Positions 5,421 through 32,296 of a stretch of 33,034 nucleotides of DNA are shown here, one piece after another. The DNA lies in assembly GCA_000998045.1 (NCBI GenBank), contig LCCS01000006.1:1-33034 (forward strand). Reading direction: 5' to 3'. Positions within the stretch are counted from its first letter, which is position 1, and every line of letters begins with the position of its first letter. The notes under the pieces are model-generated. The model was given only the letters and a program-made list of their open reading frames with translations. It searched no databases and had not been told where the DNA came from. Made by a program: the position numbers and the translations under genes. The DNA is from Parcubacteria group bacterium GW2011_GWD2_42_14. GTDB lineage: Bacteria > Patescibacteriota > Minisyncoccia > Phycocordibacterales > UBA12088.

Positions 5421-6887
5421 ATGAGCAAATATTCGTACTTTTTTATTTTACTTTTGATTGCTGTAGGTACAGTCCTCACGTTTTCTACAAAGCGTATTTT
5501 TGCTGATGATCCTCCCACAATCACTGGTGTACAGTTAGCAACAAGTACGAAGGATTCGGCAACGATAGTATGGACAACCAACAAAGCTGCTGATTCAATT
5601 GTCAACTTTGGTAAACAGCCTCATTATGGAATCATGCGTGACTCAGGGTATGATAAAACGCAACACTCAATCAAGCTTGAAGACCTTGACGCATCGACCG
5701 TATATCACTTTCGTGTTTCAAGTGCTGATGCACTAGGAAACCAAGGAGTCTCCGGAGACTATGTCTTTGTTACAGGAGGATTCCAAGATATTAAAGATAT
5801 TCAAAAGGTAAGCTCAATGTCTCAGCAAACTATCGTTGGACAGGCAACAGATGCTATTTCTCAAATTACCGACCCTGAAGCATTGAAGATTATTCAATCA
5901 GAAATTACAAATCAGGCCCAAGACCTCCTTCGTCCACCCGAAGTTATTGGACTGGCTCGTGCTATTGATGTTACCGCAACTGAAGCAAAGATTATTTGGG
6001 CTACGAGCAGGGATTCCAATTCTATTGTGCGATTTTCCAGAGAGGGGCAGTGGAATGGAACCGATTACGCCCAAACGGTTGCTGTCTTAGAGGATTCTAC
6101 AAAGTCCCACGAGGTACTTATCACAGGCTTGTCTCCCGCAACAATATACCATTTTCAAGTTGAATCTGAGGATGAGTTTGGTCTTTCTGGTGCGGGAGAG
6201 GATACGACATTTACGACTAAATCTCCCATCCCTGCAATAGAAAATGTGCAAATTGTTAAAATTGAAGAGGACTCAGCAACGTTTGCATGGTCAACCAACA
6301 TACCTGCTGCTGGTGCGGTTATATATGAAAACACAGTGACTGGTGAAATTCGTTCAGAAGGAAGTCCAGAATTTCTTACGACTCAGACCGTGCGTCTTAC
6401 CGACCTTACCCTTGGGGTGACGTATGTTGCTATAGTAAAAGCAGAGAACGAACAAGGTGAGCCGTCAGAAAGTGATCCCATAACTTTTACCACCATACGA
6501 GACGAAGAGCCACCGATTATCAGTCGTGTAAACAACGAGTCAACGCTCTATCCAGGAGCAGAGACAAGAATCCAAACTATTGTAAGTTGGGGTACGGATG
6601 AACCAAGTTTTTGCGGAATGTACTATAGTGAAGGTTTGGCTCCGGCTGAGAACGCCACAAAAATGGAAATGAACACCGAACCATCTATTGATCATGTGCG
6701 TGTGGTTACGGAGTTTTTGCCTTCGACGGTGTACAAGTTTTGGATAGAATGTGAAGATCGTTCTGAAAATTCAGTACGTTCAGAGGACTTCGTACTCTTT
6801 ACTCCAGAAAAGGAAAAGAGCATCATCGACATCATTCTTGAAAACTTTGAGGGAACGTTTGGATGGGTAAAGAATATTGGAGGGTAG
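5421..6887 (+). CDS. Secreted protein with multiple fibronectin type III domains
   Basis: Signal-like N-terminus; repeated patterns 'ATIVWTTNKAADSIVNFG...LEDLDASTVYHFRVSSADALGN' and 'AKIIWATSRDSNSIVRFS...ITGLSPATIYHFQVESEDEFG' typical of FN3. Confidence 0.8.
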   Translation: MSKYSYFFILLLIAVGTVLTFSTKRIFADDPPTITGVQLATSTKDSATIVWTTNKAADSIVNFGKQPHYGIMRDSGYDKTQHSIKLEDLDASTVYHFRVSSADALGNQGVSGDYVFVTGGFQDIKDIQKVSSMSQQTIVGQATDAISQITDPEALKIIQSEITNQAQDLLRPPEVIGLARAIDVTATEAKIIWATSRDSNSIVRFSREGQWNGTDYAQTVAVLEDSTKSHEVLITGLSPATIYHFQVESEDEFGLSGAGEDTTFTTKSPIPAIENVQIVKIEEDSATFAWSTNIPAAGAVIYENTVTGEIRSEGSPEFLTTQTVRLTDLTLGVTYVAIVKAENEQGEPSESDPITFTTIRDEEPPIISRVNNESTLYPGAETRIQTIVSWGTDEPSFCGMYYSEGLAPAENATKMEMNTEPSIDHVRVVTEFLPSTVYKFWIECEDRSENSVRSEDFVLFTPEKEKSIIDIILENFEGTFGWVKNIGG

Positions 6888-6888
6888 C

Positions 6889-7111
6889 TTAATTTGAAAT
6901 TTTTAATTTACAATTTGTAATGAATTTTTAATTATTAAATGTAAAAATAAATTTCGAAAAAAAGAATTTTAAAATTAATAGGTAAGAAATTGGAAAAGTT
7001 TGCATTTAAAAATTGAAACATTTATACATTCACTAAAAATTAAAAATTTCAAATTAAAAATTATCCAGTGAAATATGATAAAGATACTGACAATTATCAA
7101 TCTAACCGACG
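6889..7111 (+). repeat. AT-rich intergenic repeat, copy 1 (MITE-like terminal inverted repeats)
   Basis: AATTTGAAATTTTTAATTT (6891-6909) / AAATTAAAAATTTCAAATT (7037-7055) perfect 19-nt TIR; near-identical copy at 8647. Confidence 0.85.
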
Positions 7112-8578: not shown

Positions 8579-8646
8579 CCGAATGTCCCATCTAAAGTGG
8601 TATGCTACTACTGATAGTTCATATGTGTAATAAAAATACCGACAGA

Positions 8647-8867
8647 TTAATTTGAAATTTTTAATTTACAATTTGTAATGAATTTTTAATTATTAAATGT
8701 AAAAATAAATTTCGAAAAAAATTTTAAAATTAATAGGTAAAAAATGGGAAAAGTTTGCATTTAAAAAAATGAAACATTTATACATTCATTAAAAATTATG
8801 AATTTCAAATTAAAAATTATCGAGTAAAATGTGTTAAAAATGCCGACAATTATTAATCTAGCCGACG
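8647..8867 (+). repeat. AT-rich intergenic repeat, copy 2
   Basis: First ~70 nt identical to copy 1 by eye; both end in ..GACAATTATNAATCTANCCGACG. Confidence 0.85.
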
Positions 8868-10106: not shown

Positions 10107-10233
10107 ACAGAACTTACGCAAACGGCGCATTTCGTTGTCAAACTTCAGAAAATGTCGTTCACTGTACGCCGTTGTACAGCTCACTCCATTTTCTTCGTTT
10201 TCCTAGAACTGCATCCGTTTGCGTAAGTTCTGT
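10107..10233. repeat. Nested-hairpin intergenic element (family A, copy 1)
   Basis: Perfect 18-nt outer arms ACAGAACTTACGCAAACG (10107-10124)/CGTTTGCGTAAGTTCTGT (10216-10233); inner CTGTAC-gccgtt-GTACAG (10162-10179). Confidence 0.88.
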
Positions 10234-12250: not shown

Positions 12251-12422
12251 GACCTCCACAGACGTATGCAGTTCTAGGAAAACGAACAAAATGTTGTGAG
12301 CTGTACACGTCGTACTGTGAACAACATTTTGCGTAGGGCAACGATGAAATGAGCCATGTTTTCAAGGAGTGCAACGACTATGAAAACAGGAATGCCCTTG
12401 TGGTGCGTCGTCTGTGGAGGTC
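12251..12422. repeat. Nested-hairpin intergenic element (family A, copy 2, opposite orientation)
   Basis: Perfect 14-nt outer arms GACCTCCACAGACG/CGTCTGTGGAGGTC; inner CAAAATGTTG...CAACATTTTG; shares 'TTCGTTTTCCTAGAACTGCAT' with copy 1 on the reverse strand. Confidence 0.85.
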
Positions 12423-14862: not shown

Positions 14863-14956
14863 GTTAAATGTTGAAAGTTAAAAGTTCTTAAAGTTAAAAG
14901 TCCTGTTCGCCTTTGGCGAACAGGCAAGGCAGGTTCGTTAACTTTCAACATTTAAC
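14863..14956. repeat. Intergenic palindromic element with inner hairpin
   Basis: Perfect 19-nt inverted repeat GTTAAATGTTGAAAGTTAA (14863-14881)/TTAACTTTCAACATTTAAC (14938-14956); inner CCTGTTCGCC-ttt-GGCGAACAGG (14902-14924). Confidence 0.85.
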
Positions 14957-14993: not shown

Positions 14994-16034
14994 ATGCAAA
15001 GGCTATGTTATATAAGCTTATTTTTGGTAGCTGGATGTATCGGTGTGTTCCCTTACACCACGTATGCAGTTCAAATTTTTCTTGATACTACAGAAAATAC
15101 CCACAATCTATCAGATACATTTTATATACCAGTTCGCATAGATACACAGGGAGAATGTATCAACGCAGTGACCGTTGAAGTTGCCTACAATCCGGACGAA
15201 ATTTCAATACAGGACGTGAGTACTGGTGAATCAGTGCTGACCTTGTGGACTCAGTTTCCTCTTATTCAGAAAAATGAGGGAAAAGAATTAGGACAAGTCC
15301 TCTTTGAGGGCGGTATCCCAGGTGGCTATTGTGGCAGAGTGATAGGTGACCCTGGTCAAACAAACATTCTTGCAAAACTAGTTGTGACAGGAGTGCGACA
15401 ACAAGAATTCGCAACAGATACAAGTAAGGTATCACAAGTTGTTCTTGGTCCAGCAACAAAAGCGTACCTGCATGATGGATCAGGAACAGAAGCACCGCTT
15501 ACCTTGGCAGGAAGTACACTCGTTCTCACCTACTCAAGCTCAAGCCCCAACAATTTATGGCTTTCTGATGTGAAACAAGATGTGATCGCTCCTGAATTGT
15601 TTGAGATAACGTTGGTAGAAGGTCCTTCAGTTGGAAGCAACAAACATTACATTGCATTTAATACCACCGACAAACAAAGCGGTGTTGACCACTATGAAGT
15701 ATTAGAGACTGACCCAGACCGTTTTGGATTTCTAACATGGACCCCAAGAGAATCGTACTGGGTGATTGCATCGAGTCCGTATGAGCTCCGAGACCAAAAC
15801 TTGCACTCGAAAATTCTTGTGAAGGCTGTAGATAAAAACGGTAACGAACGAATCGTAACCTACACACCACCAATGTCACCGTTTGTAGTGTTGACGCAAT
15901 CGTACACAGCGCTACTCCTCGTAGGAGTACTGGTGTTTATTGTTTTCTTAGTGCTCTACAAAACAATCCGAAGAAAGAGACGTAATGACGTGCTTAAGAA
16001 TTCCGCTATTATTGAGGATGACCATGGTCAATAA
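14994..16034 (+). CDS. Membrane-anchored cohesin-domain protein
   Basis: VQIFLDTTENTHNLSDTFYIPVRIDTQGECINAVTVEVAYNPDEISIQDVSTGES...GQVLFEGGIPGGYCG...ILAKLVV, cohesin-like; C-terminal TM. Confidence 0.75.
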   Translation: MQRLCYISLFLVAGCIGVFPYTTYAVQIFLDTTENTHNLSDTFYIPVRIDTQGECINAVTVEVAYNPDEISIQDVSTGESVLTLWTQFPLIQKNEGKELGQVLFEGGIPGGYCGRVIGDPGQTNILAKLVVTGVRQQEFATDTSKVSQVVLGPATKAYLHDGSGTEAPLTLAGSTLVLTYSSSSPNNLWLSDVKQDVIAPELFEITLVEGPSVGSNKHYIAFNTTDKQSGVDHYEVLETDPDRFGFLTWTPRESYWVIASSPYELRDQNLHSKILVKAVDKNGNERIVTYTPPMSPFVVLTQSYTALLLVGVLVFIVFLVLYKTIRRKRRNDVLKNSAIIEDDHGQ

Positions 16035-17901
16035 AATAGAATTTAAGGTTGTATTGAACGCTTTGGGGATACTCGCATTATTCCTATGGATAGGATTGCC
16101 TGCGGTACTTCTTGCCGACAATGCTTCTCTTTCTATTGTCCCCGCTACTCACGTGTACCCTGTCAGTGAGCCATTTACGATTGAGGTACGTGTTGATACA
16201 GGTGGTGCTATTATTGGGACAACGGATGCTACTATTGCATATGATCCACAAGATGTTTCCTATGTATCGGTATCTGGAGAGGGCTCGGTTTTTAGTCGTA
16301 TATCAGCGGACTCTGACAGTAACTATGGGAAAGTAAGTATCTCCGGCTTTATTGAGCGGGGGAAAGAAGGGTTTAATGGTAGCAACGGACTAGTCGCACG
16401 GTTGACCTTTGTCCCTCTTCGTAATGTGGAAACGCAATTTCACTTTGCGAGTGGAAGTGCGACACCGCCTATAGCACTCGGTGCCTCAGTTGCAGATTTG
16501 GCAAATATCCTCTCAGGACTACATGTAGCAAACTACACCTTTATTCCAAAAGAATCAGCAGTAGCGGGAGTTCCTTTCGCTTCTGCACAAGAAACTTTTG
16601 AAATAACACCACTCCCTATTCCTTATACAGAATGGTTTGGTACGACATCCGTAAAATTAAGCTGGACCCTGCCAGATGGAGCAACGGAAATGCGAACACT
16701 GGTGAGTGAAAAAAAGGATGCAACACCGACGAAGGTATACCCAACACTTCTTAACTCAGCAACACTTTCTGGTATTCCAGAGGGAAAAAATTATTTTCTA
16801 CTACAGTTTAAAATCAAGGATTCGTGGGGGTCGGTGATTACCTACCCACTCAATGTGGACGTTTCTGCGCCGAGCTTTGTACTCATACGAGAAGCGGAAC
16901 GAGAGGACGAGTTCGATCCTCGAGTGGGTTTTGTTATAGAGTCATCCGACACACTCTCAGGAATAGGAAAGTATGAGATAAGTATAGACGGTGAGGCTTC
17001 ACAAATATGGGAACGACCTGAAAACGGTATCTATAGTCCCACAGGACTGACCCCAGGTGAGCATATCCTTAGCGCCAAAGCGTATGACCTTGCAGGTAAT
17101 AGCACTTCCACTGACTTGCTCTTTCTCGTCAAATCACTCGAATCTCCCATACTAAAAAACGAAAGTGTCCCGGAGAGAGTGCTTACTGGAGATACTATTA
17201 CGATACAGGGTACATCGTATCCTGATGCAGAAGTTACTGTGTACATTTCACACAATGAGGGCGAGGCCACGGAAAAAGTTACCCCTACCGATGCAGAAGG
17301 AAATTTTACTGCTACTATCACTGAGGCAGCGAAGGCAGGAAAGTATACTTTGTGGTTTACCGTGACTGATAAACGCGGAGCCAAAAGTCCGAACTCGGTG
17401 AAGCGTTCCATAGAGGTCACTCAGCCATCTATTATCTTATTTGGATCTACAGCTGTGACGTATCTGTCTATTATCGTACCGCTCATAGGACTCATTCTGC
17501 TTTTAATGCTTACACTCTGGCTTGGCTTTACGTGGCTTCGTGGATATAGACATCGAGTACGCAAAGAAACAGGCGATGCATACCATGTTGCTCGAGAAGA
17601 ATTTAAAAAACTACGAAAGGAGCTGATAAATCAAATAGGCATGCTTGAAAAAGCAAACCAATCACGTGAGTTGACTCGAGAAGAGATGCGCATTTTTGAT
17701 GATTTATCGAAACGACTTGATGAAATCGAGCGTCATATTACCGATGAGATCGAAGATATAGAGACGGTAGATATAGAGACGGTGCAGTATGAAGAAGATC
17801 CCGTACTACGTTCACACAATATTGATGGTTCATTTGAAACGTATCGAAAAAAGGTCAAAGGTGAGCCTGTGGGTGAGGGTACACATACGGTGCGTCTATA
17901 A
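16024..17901 (+). CDS. Membrane-anchored cohesin-domain protein with Ig-like repeats and cytoplasmic coiled region
   Basis: ASLSIVPATHVYPVSEPFTIEVRVDTGGAIIGTTDATIAYDPQDVSYVSV...ISGFIERGKEGFNGSNGLVARLTFVP; TM near the C-terminus; likely start at the second Met of the tracked ORF. Confidence 0.75.
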   Translation: MVNKIEFKVVLNALGILALFLWIGLPAVLLADNASLSIVPATHVYPVSEPFTIEVRVDTGGAIIGTTDATIAYDPQDVSYVSVSGEGSVFSRISADSDSNYGKVSISGFIERGKEGFNGSNGLVARLTFVPLRNVETQFHFASGSATPPIALGASVADLANILSGLHVANYTFIPKESAVAGVPFASAQETFEITPLPIPYTEWFGTTSVKLSWTLPDGATEMRTLVSEKKDATPTKVYPTLLNSATLSGIPEGKNYFLLQFKIKDSWGSVITYPLNVDVSAPSFVLIREAEREDEFDPRVGFVIESSDTLSGIGKYEISIDGEASQIWERPENGIYSPTGLTPGEHILSAKAYDLAGNSTSTDLLFLVKSLESPILKNESVPERVLTGDTITIQGTSYPDAEVTVYISHNEGEATEKVTPTDAEGNFTATITEAAKAGKYTLWFTVTDKRGAKSPNSVKRSIEVTQPSIILFGSTAVTYLSIIVPLIGLILLLMLTLWLGFTWLRGYRHRVRKETGDAYHVAREEFKKLRKELINQIGMLEKANQSRELTREEMRIFDDLSKRLDEIERHITDEIEDIETVDIETVQYEEDPVLRSHNIDGSFETYRKKVKGEPVGEGTHTVRL

Positions 17902-18583: not shown

Positions 18584-19303
18584 CTATTGACCCCACAACA
18601 GAGCAAGTGAGCCAAGTCTATTTCCGCTAGAAATATTAGAAATCAAAACACCAATATCGGCAATAGTTATCTTTCCATCAAGGTTTAAATCGTATGAACG
18701 GTTGTATGCCATAAACAACCGTGCCGAGACAACACCAAAATCAAAAAGATTTACATGTTTGTCGCCATTTACGTCAGGGTTGGGAAAGGATTCGGGTCTG
18801 ACGGAGAGCACAATAGGGTTCTCACTGCACGTTACTTCCGCTCCTGTTCCATCATGTGCGAGCATGGTTGTATCTTCAAAGTATATTTTCGCTTCACCAG
18901 CTTCAGTAGGTACCACTACAAACGTAAGTACGAGTCCTCTACCTACAAAACCTGTATCGCGTATTATGCCTCCTGAAAAATGAACCTTGCCATCATCAGA
19001 GGCTACAGGTTCATCAGACCATAGGTCAATGATTGATTCCTCCCGCGATATACTCTGTATTGTCATTGAAGGAGGTGTCACGATAGTAGCACTAAGTACA
19101 TTGATAGGTGTGTCTGCATCAGCAATAACCTCAAGTGTTACCTGTTCACCAACTTCTACGTACCTGTTGTCACTGGGGACAATACACATTTCTTCCGGAT
19201 CTCGGATAAGGGAGAGTGATGAAGCAAGCAAAAAAACCATCGGAACACCAACCGCAATTTTATATTTATGTTTTCTTAGGTGATGTCGAACCATTTCAAT
19301 CAT
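18584..19303 (-). CDS. Secreted protein with cohesin-like domain and C-terminal dockerin
   Basis: Cohesin-like VGEQVTLEVIADADTPINVLSATIVTPPSMTIQSIS...GKVHFSGGI...GRGLVLTFVVVP; dockerin DVNGDKHVNLFDFGVVSARLF...DLNLDGKITIADIGVLISNIS. Confidence 0.8.
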   Translation of the reverse strand: MIEMVRHHLRKHKYKIAVGVPMVFLLASSLSLIRDPEEMCIVPSDNRYVEVGEQVTLEVIADADTPINVLSATIVTPPSMTIQSISREESIIDLWSDEPVASDDGKVHFSGGIIRDTGFVGRGLVLTFVVVPTEAGEAKIYFEDTTMLAHDGTGAEVTCSENPIVLSVRPESFPNPDVNGDKHVNLFDFGVVSARLFMAYNRSYDLNLDGKITIADIGVLISNISSGNRLGSLALLWGQ

Positions 19304-27515: not shown

Positions 27516-29945
27516 ATGGAAAAGCCTTCTTCACACGCAAAAACAAACAAGTCAAAGGGTACAGATTCAAAAGATACGAATGCTATGATTGACAGCATCT
27601 TTGAAGCAGAAGTGCGTGCACCTTCAAAGGGTGAGGAAACACAGGAAATGCATAAAGGCTCATACTATACAAAATTTGTTTCAAAAATACAAAAACGGGA
27701 TGGCTCCATAGTTCCTTTTGATTTTCAAAAAATAATTCGTGCTATTTCTCTCGCAATGGACCAGGTGAGTGAAGGTTCTCATGATGAAGCGGAGATGGTT
27801 GCACACAGAGTTGCTTCTGAGGTGGTACGGATAGCAAAAAAGTATAAAAATTTCTTGCCGACTGTAGAGGGTATTCAGGATGAAGTTGAGCGTCAGCTCA
27901 TTCTCTCTGAGTATGTCAAAACTGCCAAGAGCTATATTCTTTATCGTGAGGAGCGTTCTCGTTTGCGCAAGATGACTATGGCAGTACCAGAGAAGGTGCG
28001 CCAACTTGCGGAAGAAAGCTCAAAATACTTCAAAGATAATCCTCTCGGTGAATTTGTATTTTTACGCACGTATGCACGATGGATTCCAAATGAAAACAGA
28101 CGGGAGACATGGATAGAGACGGTAGATAGGTATGTAGACTTTATGCGAGAGAAACTTGGAGAGAAGCTTACAGAAGAAGAGTACAGTGAGGTTCGAGAAG
28201 CTATTTTAAACCAAGAAGCGATGCCTTCCATGCGACTTCTACAGTTTGCCGGAGAGCCAGCACGCAGGTGTAACGCGGTCGCATACAATTGTTCTTACAT
28301 TGCTCCGACAACCATACAAGATTTTGGTGAAGTGCTCTATCTGTCAGCTTCTGGATGTGGCGTAGGTTTTTCTGCTGAGAGTAAAAACATTGAAAAGCTT
28401 CCACAAATAAAAGAGCAAACAGGAGTAACCCTTAAAACGCATGTCGTAGGGGACAGTAAGGAAGGATGGGCAGATGCACTCATTTTGGGTATGAACACAT
28501 GGTACATGGGCAAAGATATTGAGTTTGATTATTCTAAGGTTCGCCCAAGTGGTACACGTCTTAAAACTATGGGTGGAAAGGCAAGTGGTCCTGCGCCACT
28601 CAAGTCACTTCTCGATTTTACTCGTTACAAGATTCTTTCACGTCAAAACAGACGCCTTCGCCCCATTGATGCACATGACATTTTGTGCAAAATCGGAGAA
28701 GCTATTGTTTCAGGAGGAGTACGACGAAGCGCCATGATATCACTTTCCGATCTTGATAATGAAGAGATACGCCATGCAAAAGATGGTGCGTTCTACAACT
28801 CAGAACCACAGCGCATGTTGGCAAATAACAGTGCGGTCTATGAAATGAAGCCAACGAGCGAAGAATTTATGGATGAGTGGATGGCGCTTATGAAAGGGAG
28901 GAGCGGAGAACGAGGTATTTTCAACAGAGGCGGACTCATGACCCAGCTTCCTAAGCGTCGTCTCGACCTTTGGAGAAAGAAGGGTGTCATCATGAACAAT
29001 CACATTGTGGAGTCTGTTGGAGTAAATCCTTGCGGAGAAATTATTCTTCAATCAAAGCAGTTTTGTAACCTCTCTGAAGTTATAGCCCGCAGGAATGACA
29101 CACTCGAGACACTTAAAAAGAAAATGCGCATCGCTGCTATCCTCGGTACCTACCAGAGCTCACTCACGGACTTCAAGTATATCTCGAGCACATGGAAGGA
29201 GAATTGTGCTGATGAACGACTTCTCGGTATATCTGTTACTGGACAATGGGATTCACCTGAAGCTCGCAAGCCTGAAGTGCTTCGCGCTCTCCGAGAGGAA
29301 GCTGTAGCAATGAATAAGAAGTATGCAAAACGATTTGGTATCTCTCCATCTTCTGCTGTGACCGCAGTCAAGCCGTCAGGCACCGTGAGTCAGACAGTGA
29401 ACTGTGCTTCAGGTATGCATCCACGACACAGCGAGTACTACATTCGACGCATTCGCATTACGAGTACCGACTCACTCTTTAAAATGCTTCGGGATCAGGG
29501 TGTGCAGTATCATCCAGAGGTCGGACAGACTATGGCAAACGCAAATACCTATGTTATTGATTTCCCAGTGAAAGCACCGAAGAGTTCTGTGTACAGCAAT
29601 GACCTCTCGGCACTTGAACAGCTGGAGTACTGGCGCAATGTGAAGGTAAATTACACCGAGCATAATCCTTCAGTTACTATTTCCATTGCAGATGATGAGT
29701 GGGTCGGGGTGGCAAACTGGCTCTATGAAAACTGGGAGATGATAGGGGGGCTCTCGTTCCTTCCACGTGTCGGACAAGTACACCAGCTCTCACCATACGA
29801 AGAAATCACCAAAGAGGAGTACGAGAAGCTCTCAGCGAAGTACAAGAATGTAGACTACTCGAAGTTGGTGACGTATGAGTTTCGGGATGAGACGGAGCAG
29901 GCGAAGGAATTGGCGTGTTCGGGCAACTCTTGCGAAATCAACTAA
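27516..29945 (+). CDS. Adenosylcobalamin-dependent (class II) ribonucleotide reductase with N-terminal ATP-cone
   Basis: ATP-cone-like KRDGSIVPFDFQKIIRAISLAMDQV; NQEAMPSMRLLQFAGEPARRCNAVAYNCSYI; SASGCGVGFS; VNPCGEI; AVKPSGTVSQTVNCASGMHPRHSEYYIRRIRI; C-terminal CSGNSC. Confidence 0.9.
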   Translation: MEKPSSHAKTNKSKGTDSKDTNAMIDSIFEAEVRAPSKGEETQEMHKGSYYTKFVSKIQKRDGSIVPFDFQKIIRAISLAMDQVSEGSHDEAEMVAHRVASEVVRIAKKYKNFLPTVEGIQDEVERQLILSEYVKTAKSYILYREERSRLRKMTMAVPEKVRQLAEESSKYFKDNPLGEFVFLRTYARWIPNENRRETWIETVDRYVDFMREKLGEKLTEEEYSEVREAILNQEAMPSMRLLQFAGEPARRCNAVAYNCSYIAPTTIQDFGEVLYLSASGCGVGFSAESKNIEKLPQIKEQTGVTLKTHVVGDSKEGWADALILGMNTWYMGKDIEFDYSKVRPSGTRLKTMGGKASGPAPLKSLLDFTRYKILSRQNRRLRPIDAHDILCKIGEAIVSGGVRRSAMISLSDLDNEEIRHAKDGAFYNSEPQRMLANNSAVYEMKPTSEEFMDEWMALMKGRSGERGIFNRGGLMTQLPKRRLDLWRKKGVIMNNHIVESVGVNPCGEIILQSKQFCNLSEVIARRNDTLETLKKKMRIAAILGTYQSSLTDFKYISSTWKENCADERLLGISVTGQWDSPEARKPEVLRALREEAVAMNKKYAKRFGISPSSAVTAVKPSGTVSQTVNCASGMHPRHSEYYIRRIRITSTDSLFKMLRDQGVQYHPEVGQTMANANTYVIDFPVKAPKSSVYSNDLSALEQLEYWRNVKVNYTEHNPSVTISIADDEWVGVANWLYENWEMIGGLSFLPRVGQVHQLSPYEEITKEEYEKLSAKYKNVDYSKLVTYEFRDETEQAKELACSGNSCEIN

Positions 29946-29947
29946 GT

Positions 29948-30073
29948 TCAAAAGCTCACAATTGACGAATTTCGTTGTTGCCATCGCCGTCGACCCTTTC
30001 ACAATATAGATACATATTGCTCAAGGGCACGACGGCTCGGCGCCTAGAAATTCATTCAATTCTGAGCTTTTGA
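29948..30073. repeat. Long nested hairpin after the ribonucleotide reductase gene (loose family A member)
   Basis: Outer TCAAAAGCTCACAATTGACGAATTTC / GAAATTCATTCAATTCTGAGCTTTTGA; inner GCCGTCG-a-CCCTT-tca-CAATAT-agatac-ATATTG-ctc-AAGGG-ca-CGACGGC. Confidence 0.85.
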
Positions 30074-30148: not shown

Positions 30149-30281
30149 ATTAACATAAAAGCGATTTTTTCGTTGTGTTCCTGCGACGAGCTACGACTCT
30201 GTTAGAGCGTTACGTGTGATTGTGTCATCATGATTGCGTTATCTCATAAGCGATAGAAGATAAGAAGGCTTTTATGTTAAT
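30149..30281 (+). ncRNA. Candidate retron msr-msd RNA
   Basis: Perfect 14-nt inverted repeat ATTAACATAAAAGC (30149-30162)/GCTTTTATGTTAAT (30268-30281) enclosing ~105 nt with hairpins at 30170-30189, 30193-30210, 30215-30232 and 30233-30254, directly upstream of a retron-type RT. Confidence 0.75.
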
Positions 30282-30283
30282 TA

Positions 30284-31990
30284 ATGGTTTTAAATAAAAA
30301 TTTTCCAGTAGACATACCAGAAGACATAAGGGATTGTCGAAATATTACCGACTTGGCAAAGTTGCTTAATATTAATTTGAAAGCACTATTCTTTTTTGCT
30401 TACAAAAAAGAACGTTTGTATCTCAGTTTTAATATTAAGAAAAAAAATGGCGGGGCTAGGAATATCTCAGCTCCAATTGAAGCATTAAAAAATACCACAA
30501 AAAAAATAAACAGTTACTTATCAGTGGTATATGAGGAGTATAAACCGAAATCTGTGCATGGCTTTGTCTATGATAGAGATGTTGTGACAAACGCAGGAAA
30601 TCATCTTGATAGAAAGTATATTCTTAATATCGATTTGTTAAATTTCTTTGAAACAATCACCGCGCAGAGAATTTATGGTTTGTTTAAACGTTATCCCTTC
30701 ATTTTTGGGAATAAATTTGCTTCTATATTAACAGGTATAGTGACATATAATAATTGCTTACCCCAAGGTTCTCCTTGTTCTCCTGTATTATCAAACATGG
30801 TTTGTCTAAAAATGGATAAACAGTTAATAAACCTCGCAAATGAAAATGGGTGGAGATACACAAGGTATGCAGATGATATAACCTTTTCAGCAAATAAAAT
30901 TTCAAGCAATCTCGCTAATTTTGCAAGTGACGGGATTAATGTAGGTGAAAAAATTGTAAATATAATCAACAAGAATGGGTTTGCAATTAATGAAAAGAAA
31001 ACACGATTATCTTCCCATAACCAAAGTAAGTGGGTTACTGGGATTAAGGTAAATAAAAAATGTAATGTTTCTAGAAAATATGTACGAAATGTACGCGCTA
31101 TGTTACATGTGTGGGAGGCATACGATGAAAAGTTAGCTGAAAAGACATATAATGCTAAATATAATTTTGGTAAAAACAAAAAATTTAGGAGTGTGGTGAA
31201 TGGAAAAATTGAACATATCGGTCATGTAAAAACCAAAAAAGATTTAATTTATATAAAGCTTCATAATAGGTATTGTGAATTAGTAGGTGAATCTCATAAA
31301 AGATTGCCAGAAACAAAAAAAGATGAATATCTGAATAAGGTACTAATGATACAGGGTCAATCTGGTTATGGAAGCGGGTTTTTTATTACTCAACACTTAA
31401 TTCTTACATGTGCCCATGTTGTAAAAGGTTCAAAAAAAGTTAAGTTTACAACACGCTTGAACAAGCTTCCTGTGGAATTCAAAGAAGCAAGTGTTATCGA
31501 TATAAATATCGAAAAAGACTATGCGATATTATTTTCAGAAAAAAAGTTTAATGAGTTTGTATTCAAGTGCAATTTAAATAAAGGCTTAAATATGTATAGT
31601 CATAATGACGCATATATTTCAGTTGGATATGCCGGTTTTAGAACTGATGGTAACTTTTGGGTTGAACCATCAATTGCTGATCAAAAAATTGTCCAAACAA
31701 ATCAGCGTAAGAACGTTAATAGTTTTGATGTTAGTGGTGCTATGTGGAAAGGCATGAGTGGAGGTCCAATTATTTTAGAACATACAGATTATGTAGAGGG
31801 GTATATAGTTAATGGGGCATCATCACTAGATACCAGCGAAGATGTAAAAAGTCATTCTTTTTATCCAATTTCAAATATTCCAAAAAAGTATTATGAACCT
31901 AAATTTCTAACCCTTTTGATTGATGAAATGTACGGTAGCAGGTTTACAGAAACAAAAGAAGTTGGCATGCCTGACCAATTTTTTACTTAG
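30284..31990 (+). CDS. Retron-type reverse transcriptase fused to C-terminal trypsin-like serine protease
   Basis: RT motifs: NAGNH (30590-30604), IDLLNFFETI, LPQGSPCSPVLSN, RYADDITF (YADD 30866-30877), WVTGIKV (VTG 31034-31042). Protease: GSGFFITQHLILTCAHVV (H378), KDYAIL (D412), GMSGGPI (S492). Confidence 0.93.
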   Translation: MVLNKNFPVDIPEDIRDCRNITDLAKLLNINLKALFFFAYKKERLYLSFNIKKKNGGARNISAPIEALKNTTKKINSYLSVVYEEYKPKSVHGFVYDRDVVTNAGNHLDRKYILNIDLLNFFETITAQRIYGLFKRYPFIFGNKFASILTGIVTYNNCLPQGSPCSPVLSNMVCLKMDKQLINLANENGWRYTRYADDITFSANKISSNLANFASDGINVGEKIVNIINKNGFAINEKKTRLSSHNQSKWVTGIKVNKKCNVSRKYVRNVRAMLHVWEAYDEKLAEKTYNAKYNFGKNKKFRSVVNGKIEHIGHVKTKKDLIYIKLHNRYCELVGESHKRLPETKKDEYLNKVLMIQGQSGYGSGFFITQHLILTCAHVVKGSKKVKFTTRLNKLPVEFKEASVIDINIEKDYAILFSEKKFNEFVFKCNLNKGLNMYSHNDAYISVGYAGFRTDGNFWVEPSIADQKIVQTNQRKNVNSFDVSGAMWKGMSGGPIILEHTDYVEGYIVNGASSLDTSEDVKSHSFYPISNIPKKYYEPKFLTLLIDEMYGSRFTETKEVGMPDQFFT

Positions 31991-32075: not shown

Positions 32076-32104
32076 AATACTAGAATTTCCACTAGTATTT
32101 TTTT
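32076..32104 (+). terminator. Rho-independent terminator downstream of retron
   Basis: AATACTAG-aatttcca-CTAGTATT followed by a T run. Confidence 0.8.
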
Positions 32105-32296
32105 ATGATGGAGGTTCAACCTTTACCATAACGTAACAGTTAATTATTTAAATGAAGTAGGTTCAACCTTCTTCATTAGCTACTAGCGGTGCACCTACCT
32201 TACGGTTAACCGTAAGGTAGAGAGTCGTCTTACATATTCTTTACAGTTGAGTTTTTTAATATACGGTAGCTCTGGAGGTTGAATCTCCATCATAAA
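32101..32296. repeat. Cluster of hairpins with GGTT-n-AACC-like cores, bounded by imperfect inverted repeat
   Basis: TTTATGATGGAGGTTCAACCT (left) vs GGAGGTTGAATCTCCATCATAAA (right); AATGAAGTAGGTTCAACCTTCTTCATT (32151-32177); perfect palindrome CTACCTTACGGTTAACCGTAAGGTAG (32195-32220). Confidence 0.75.

Follow-up and report, generated by a model that had tools for sequence, protein, structure and literature searches.

A probable, divergent type XI retron, with its msr-msd RNA upstream of a reverse transcriptase-protease fusion gene, in a Patescibacteria-like genome

Type XI retrons, a nomenclature that reportedly goes back to Mestre et al. 2020, correspond to the PADLOC family RT-Protease_XI and consist of a single gene in which a reverse transcriptase (RT) is fused to a trypsin-like protease, with an msr-msd RNA containing a1/a2 arms and the stem-loop SL1 directly upstream. 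Retron Eco2 (Ec67), a type I-C RT-Toprim system, is likewise encoded by one fusion gene, carries a Toprim RNase as effector and has an RNA in which a1, G-AUUU.., a single SL1, the msd and a2 follow each other around a 105-nt insert. According to its cryo-EM structure the branching rG15, linked 2'-5' to dT1, is the first base after the inverted repeat arm and is followed by rA16-rU19 and the stem-loop, and Phe46 of the protein matters for msDNA synthesis (PMC12405507). The RT domain of type XII retrons (RT-TIR fusions) belongs to the same broad clade as that of the protein described below. Trypsin-like proteases are also attached to defence enzymes in the nuclease-protease pairs of Hachiman, AVAST, Lamassu and DRT systems, where they are located N-terminal to the core enzyme and act on a neighbouring MBL-fold nuclease (PMC12799240).

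We analyzed a 33,034-nucleotide stretch of DNA (the window; contig LCCS01000006.1) from Parcubacteria group bacterium GW2011_GWD2_42_14, which very probably carries a divergent new member of the known type XI retrons. The locus shares with these the single-gene RT-protease fusion, the domain order, the triad and the upstream position of the RNA, but its protein is only about 26-36% identical to the relatives found, sits on a long, unplaced branch and is encoded in a small Patescibacteria-like genome. The arrangement of the RNA, including the 105-nt insert, and the single fusion gene are shared with Eco2, to which the RT domain has its best match in the PDB, while the effector is a protease instead of a Toprim RNase. 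Type XII differs by its TIR domain, which the window protein does not have, and in contrast to the nuclease-protease pairs the protease is C-terminal to the RT, with no nuclease gene seen adjoining. The features of the locus are as follows.

30149..30162, + strand: a1 arm ATTAACATAAAAGC, exact complement of a2; relatives mostly have arms in the same place
30163, + strand: predicted branching guanosine, first base after a1, from the Ec67-family/Eco2 alignment
30164..30169, + strand: single-stranded linker AUUUUU (Eco2 ssRa counterpart, AUUU)
30170..30189, + strand: SL1, msr stem-loop UCGUUGUGUUCCUGCGACGA; the helix covaries in relatives and lies within the match to covariance model R2
30200..30266, + strand: predicted msd template of a 67-nt RT-DNA, with A30266 as first templated base and the last near 30200/30201, from the Eco2 rule
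30268..30281, + strand: a2 arm GCTTTTATGTTAAT, exact complement of a1
30284..31990, + strand: retron reverse transcriptase - trypsin-like protease fusion, 568 aa (PADLOC, Pfam, AlphaFold model)
30866..30877, + strand: YADD catalytic motif, residues 195-198
31319..31873, + strand: trypsin-like protease domain (Pfam Trypsin_2)
31415-31417, 31517-31519 and 31757-31759, + strand: protease triad His378, Asp412 and Ser492

The best PADLOC family for the fusion protein was RT-Protease_XI (E 6.8e-143, 475 bits, residues 13-532), followed by type XII (376 bits), and both Pfam RVT_1 and Trypsin_2 scored above their cut-offs, while the group II intron RT model reached 57 of 300 bits, far under its cut-off. 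The ORF contains the conserved retron RT motifs NAGNH (103-107, NAxxH), YADD and VTG (251-253), and Tyr46 is the counterpart of Phe46 in Eco2. The protease His, Asp and Ser were invariant across the 38-41 RT-protease proteins compared. An AlphaFold model built from 38 sequences (pLDDT 88) had Eco2 as its nearest PDB structure and also matched the trypsin-like peptidases Rv3671c and RsgI9; a Toprim effector as in type I-C (Ec67/Eco2) was absent, the C-terminus of the fusion being trypsin-like. Neither a frameshift nor a stop was found in the ORF, and the catalytic residues of both domains are intact. The protein is the only RT found in the 1.08-Mb genome.

Examination of the sequence upstream of this gene confirmed the perfect 14-bp a1/a2 repeats of the original prediction as exact complements enclosing the insert, with a gap of 2 nt between the end of a2 and the start of the ORF. 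The spacer extends from the stop codon of the preceding ribonucleotide reductase gene (27516-29945) to the ORF start (30284). When the 360-nt spacer was shuffled 20,000 times with its dinucleotides preserved, a perfect 14-bp inverted repeat with similar spacing appeared in 4 cases. The 133-nt RNA folded at -37.8 kcal/mol with its arms paired (z -2.5; 2 of 200 shuffles were equally good), and with 9 nt added on each side none of 200 shuffles was as good (z -3.0). Among the four hairpins proposed for the insert, the first (UCGUUG..CGACGA) and second (ACG-a-CUCU/AGAG-CGU) were present in both the minimum-energy and the centroid folds. The complementarity of the third and fourth is real, but the fold preferred other registers and the centroid retained only part of the fourth.

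Relatives were gathered from genome, viral and plasmid collections by profile searches, which were used after single-protein scans of genome and viral contigs had revealed no close relative. Most of the RT-protease relatives keep strong arms of unrelated sequence in the same place, and retention of the RT with loss of the a1/a2 pairing was not the rule among them. Such arms occur upstream of RT-protease genes in Pseudomonadota, Bacillota, Planctomycetota, Patescibacteria and others, span mostly 114-166 nt and have an a2 that terminates near the start codon; examples are the pairs tggggaatataagatt/aatcttatattcccca from a genome of the Paceibacterota, atttggagatacacaa/ttgtgtatctccaaat from a different member of the class to which the window belongs and cacgaggtctccc/gggagacctcgtg from Alphaproteobacteria. 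In a first pass the helix was better than all 60 shuffles in 21 of about 50 loci, including the window, and after new start codons had been assigned, about 34 loci with RT-protease genes exceeded 27 on the helix scale, as scored without a shuffle control. Some relatives retain arms of just 7-9 bp and a few have no clear arms.

Directly after the linker these RNAs contain a stem-loop with near-constant U-G-U...C-U-G-C-G and a variable stem. The covariation score of this SL1 was 0.78, compared to 0.29 +/- 0.03 for shuffled alignments and at most 0.19 for slid partners, with 93% of the alignment cells paired and 55 cells changed on both sides. One locus from the class of the window (L183 in genome G660) encodes an RT that belongs to the same broad clade but has a different C-terminal extension, which is apparently phospholipase-D-like (HDRYIIID motif).

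The earlier statement that the element was not matched to any known retron holds for Rfam, where neither gathering nor relaxed thresholds gave a retron match, but not beyond it, the element being a recognisable relative of type XI and Ec67-type RNAs. A covariance model of 37 unselected ncRNAs (R1), 35 of them from RT-protease genes, had no significant match in the whole window (SL1 10.7 bits, E 2.7) and matched SL1 weakly within the 221-nt spacer (E 0.018); it also detected the stem-loop upstream of protease-less RTs in the same clade. R1 sees SL1 of the window weakly because the element resembles the Ec67 family, whose layout is a1, G-A-U-U-U.. and SL1, with a shorter, U-rich linker. Model R2, comprising 36 sequences without the window and representing relatives in which a G immediately follows a1 or precedes a U-rich linker, matched 30164-30209 (26.3 bits, E 3.5e-4; next 12.5 bits), an E-value that is somewhat optimistic because relatives with a G before a U-rich linker were picked after the window had been seen. 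Across the whole 1.08-Mb genome the same element was the top R2 match (E 0.011; next 16.9 bits). The A+U-rich linker beginning with G-A-U is nearer to Ec67 RNAs than to most type XI RNAs compared, the sequence GATTTTTTCG directly after a1 is identical in the window and a Bacillus cereus Ec67-family RNA, and the insert length equals that of a canonical Eco2-like copy (L141). The ncRNA shares SL1 and arms with the RNAs of other RT-protease genes, and these comparisons support 30149-30281 as the genuine msr-msd (template) RNA of the RT-protease gene.

For the branch point, G30161 had been proposed; this base is paired inside the a1/a2 helix, and it was rejected. Homology to rG15 of Eco2 points instead to G30163, where the RNA first becomes unpaired behind a1. 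In the alignment with Ec67-family RNAs, G30163 occupies the position of the G that immediately follows their a1, and it is most likely the branching guanosine. The ends of the DNA were predicted by a rule that places the first templated base second before a2 and the last at insert position 38. Applied to L141 this rule yielded a 67-nt DNA with a T start and a CTGCC end, matching the report for Eco2, and for the window it predicts an RT-DNA of the same length that would start 5' with TTCTTATCTTC. The predicted window RT-DNA exhibited no marked hairpin (z 0.9 versus shuffles). A strong msd DNA hairpin was dropped as a retron criterion since it does not discriminate: Eco2 DNA was no better than shuffles in the same test (z 0.2).

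In a tree of 94 RTs the window protein fell into no supported clade and had a long branch (1.06 changes per column), and the other type XI retrons of its class were not close relatives. The RT-protease genes did not form one clade, with up to 15 changes in the tree and at least two forced by supported branches. Five congeneric genomes, some of which are incomplete or masked, yielded no copy. These congeners retain the ribonucleotide reductase gene, similarity ending with the gene and the DNA behind it being unrelated, with some contigs short; nothing downstream of the reductase matched and the comparison provided no clean empty site. The retron gene has a G+C content of 31.5%, compared to 42.9% for the window. 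Considering the lack of a copy in the congeners and the A+T-rich gene, it was probably acquired laterally. Since two relatives from the same class are Paceibacterota and Parcubacteria MAGs, the host is most probably a Patescibacterium of the Paceibacteria type. An open frame of 24,879 codons in another genome (G740) was discarded as masked sequence (N). Elsewhere in the window, the neighbouring genes at 15985-17901 and 18584-19303 encode cohesin/Ig-like and dockerin type I domains in this small genome.

The spacers of this genome are rich in palindromes, and a repeat search of the window identified at least five further inverted repeats that lie between genes and whose arms pair perfectly over 12-14 bp or more, including:

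6889-7057: intergenic inverted repeat
8647-8813: intergenic inverted repeat
10107-10233: intergenic inverted repeat
12251-12422: intergenic inverted repeat
14863-14956: intergenic inverted repeat

The first two lie in A+T-rich long-hairpin (MITE-like) elements of about 180 bp (6886-7065 and 8644-8821) that are 94% identical and have 26 matching stretches genome-wide. The other three and 29948-30073 are long intergenic hairpins, several of which begin only a few bases away from a stop codon. The stretches 10149-10221 and 12259-12330 contain 88%-identical sequence in opposite orientation; 29948-30073, directly after the reductase gene, is a near-perfect hairpin (-56 kcal/mol) that is single-copy except for its own reverse strand. 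Downstream of the retron gene, a terminator-like hairpin at 32076-32104 (AATACTAGAATTTCCACTAGTATTTTTTT) recurs in the genome as about 20 similar copies, most of them oriented the same way, and 32102-32296 is a composite palindrome with 21-bp terminal inverted repeats that holds ATGAAGtAGGTTCAACCTtCTTCAT and CTACCTTACGGTTAACCGTAAGGTAG, two sequences with dispersed copies elsewhere in the genome. Contig C12 encodes a Y1/IS200-like (RAYT-type) transposase (L217:2119-2916, - strand) that is flanked by ATGAAGtAGGTTCAACCTtCTTCAT, an arrangement resembling a REP-RAYT system. On contig C18 of G000, palindrome copies of TACCTTACGGTTAACCGTAAGGTA lie on either side of a small ORF (L218:797-1210) whose HTH match is weak.

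Because so many other long palindromes occupy the spacers, the arms alone prove little, and it is therefore the comparison with relatives that decides: the retron RNA of the original prediction is upheld by this comparison, but its arms by themselves are not the diagnostic layout they had been taken for. That the inverted repeat is another MITE- or REP-like palindrome lying by chance before an RT gene would agree with the perfect-arm repeats elsewhere in the window, with the family of 26 genome matches and with the REP-like palindromes just downstream of the retron gene. We nevertheless regard this as very improbable and rejected it for 30149-30281, since the element is single-copy, pairs at its ends only and, unlike elements A, B, C and F, showed no lengthwise match to its own reverse strand; several of the other repeats are palindromic along much of theirs. 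The element furthermore matches retron RNAs from other phyla.

A genuine retron RNA could also belong to a system that has decayed or fallen silent in this lineage, as might be suspected from the long RT branch, from the type XI profile score of 475 bits compared to 565-662 for four plasmid-borne relatives and from the five congeners without a copy. Given the intact ORF, the preservation of every catalytic motif and the 14-bp arms, we consider decay decidedly unlikely. Alternatively, msDNA may be made while the protease serves a purpose other than phage defence, for instance maturation of the RT or processing of a host protein in normal growth. Neither a partner gene nor a defence island was seen adjoining the retron gene, and no paper describing type XI function was found in the literature searched; type XI is, however, among the candidate defence systems of PADLOC, and Eco2, the nearest relative with a solved structure, is an anti-phage RT-effector fusion that is autoinhibited, so such a role appears unlikely.

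In our assessment, 30149-31990 very probably represents a complete single-gene type XI retron, in which RT-msDNA would hold the protease until its release is triggered by phage. The RNA folds with a1 paired to a2. By analogy with Eco2, the RT domain of the fusion protein would bind SL1, use the 2'-OH of G30163 as its primer and turn the 3' half of the RNA into the DNA of about 67 nt. The branched RNA-DNA product (msDNA) would stay bound to the protein and probably restrain the C-terminal protease. If the msDNA were damaged or removed during phage infection, the protease would become free to cut a protein of the cell or the virus, and phage production would come to a halt. The most likely arrangement is thus an RT-msDNA-protease complex in an autoinhibited state, with the protease freed upon msDNA loss, as proposed for the Toprim of Eco2. 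More tentatively, and with somewhat less than even confidence, we suggest that in an episymbiotic, genome-reduced host loss of the RT-DNA would free a serine protease and cause abortive infection by proteolysis, with the system acquired independently of other type XI retrons in Patescibacteria.

With this locus the type XI retrons gain a divergent and apparently intact member in a Patescibacteria-like genome. A small candidate-phylum bacterium is thus probably equipped with a complete anti-phage retron encoded by one gene, of a type already described and little studied. An RNA module consisting of a1, linker and covarying SL1, likely including the branch point, is common to RT-protease and Ec67-type retrons. 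With concrete ncRNA boundaries and a predicted RT-DNA at hand, msDNA production and the action of the protease would be directly testable.
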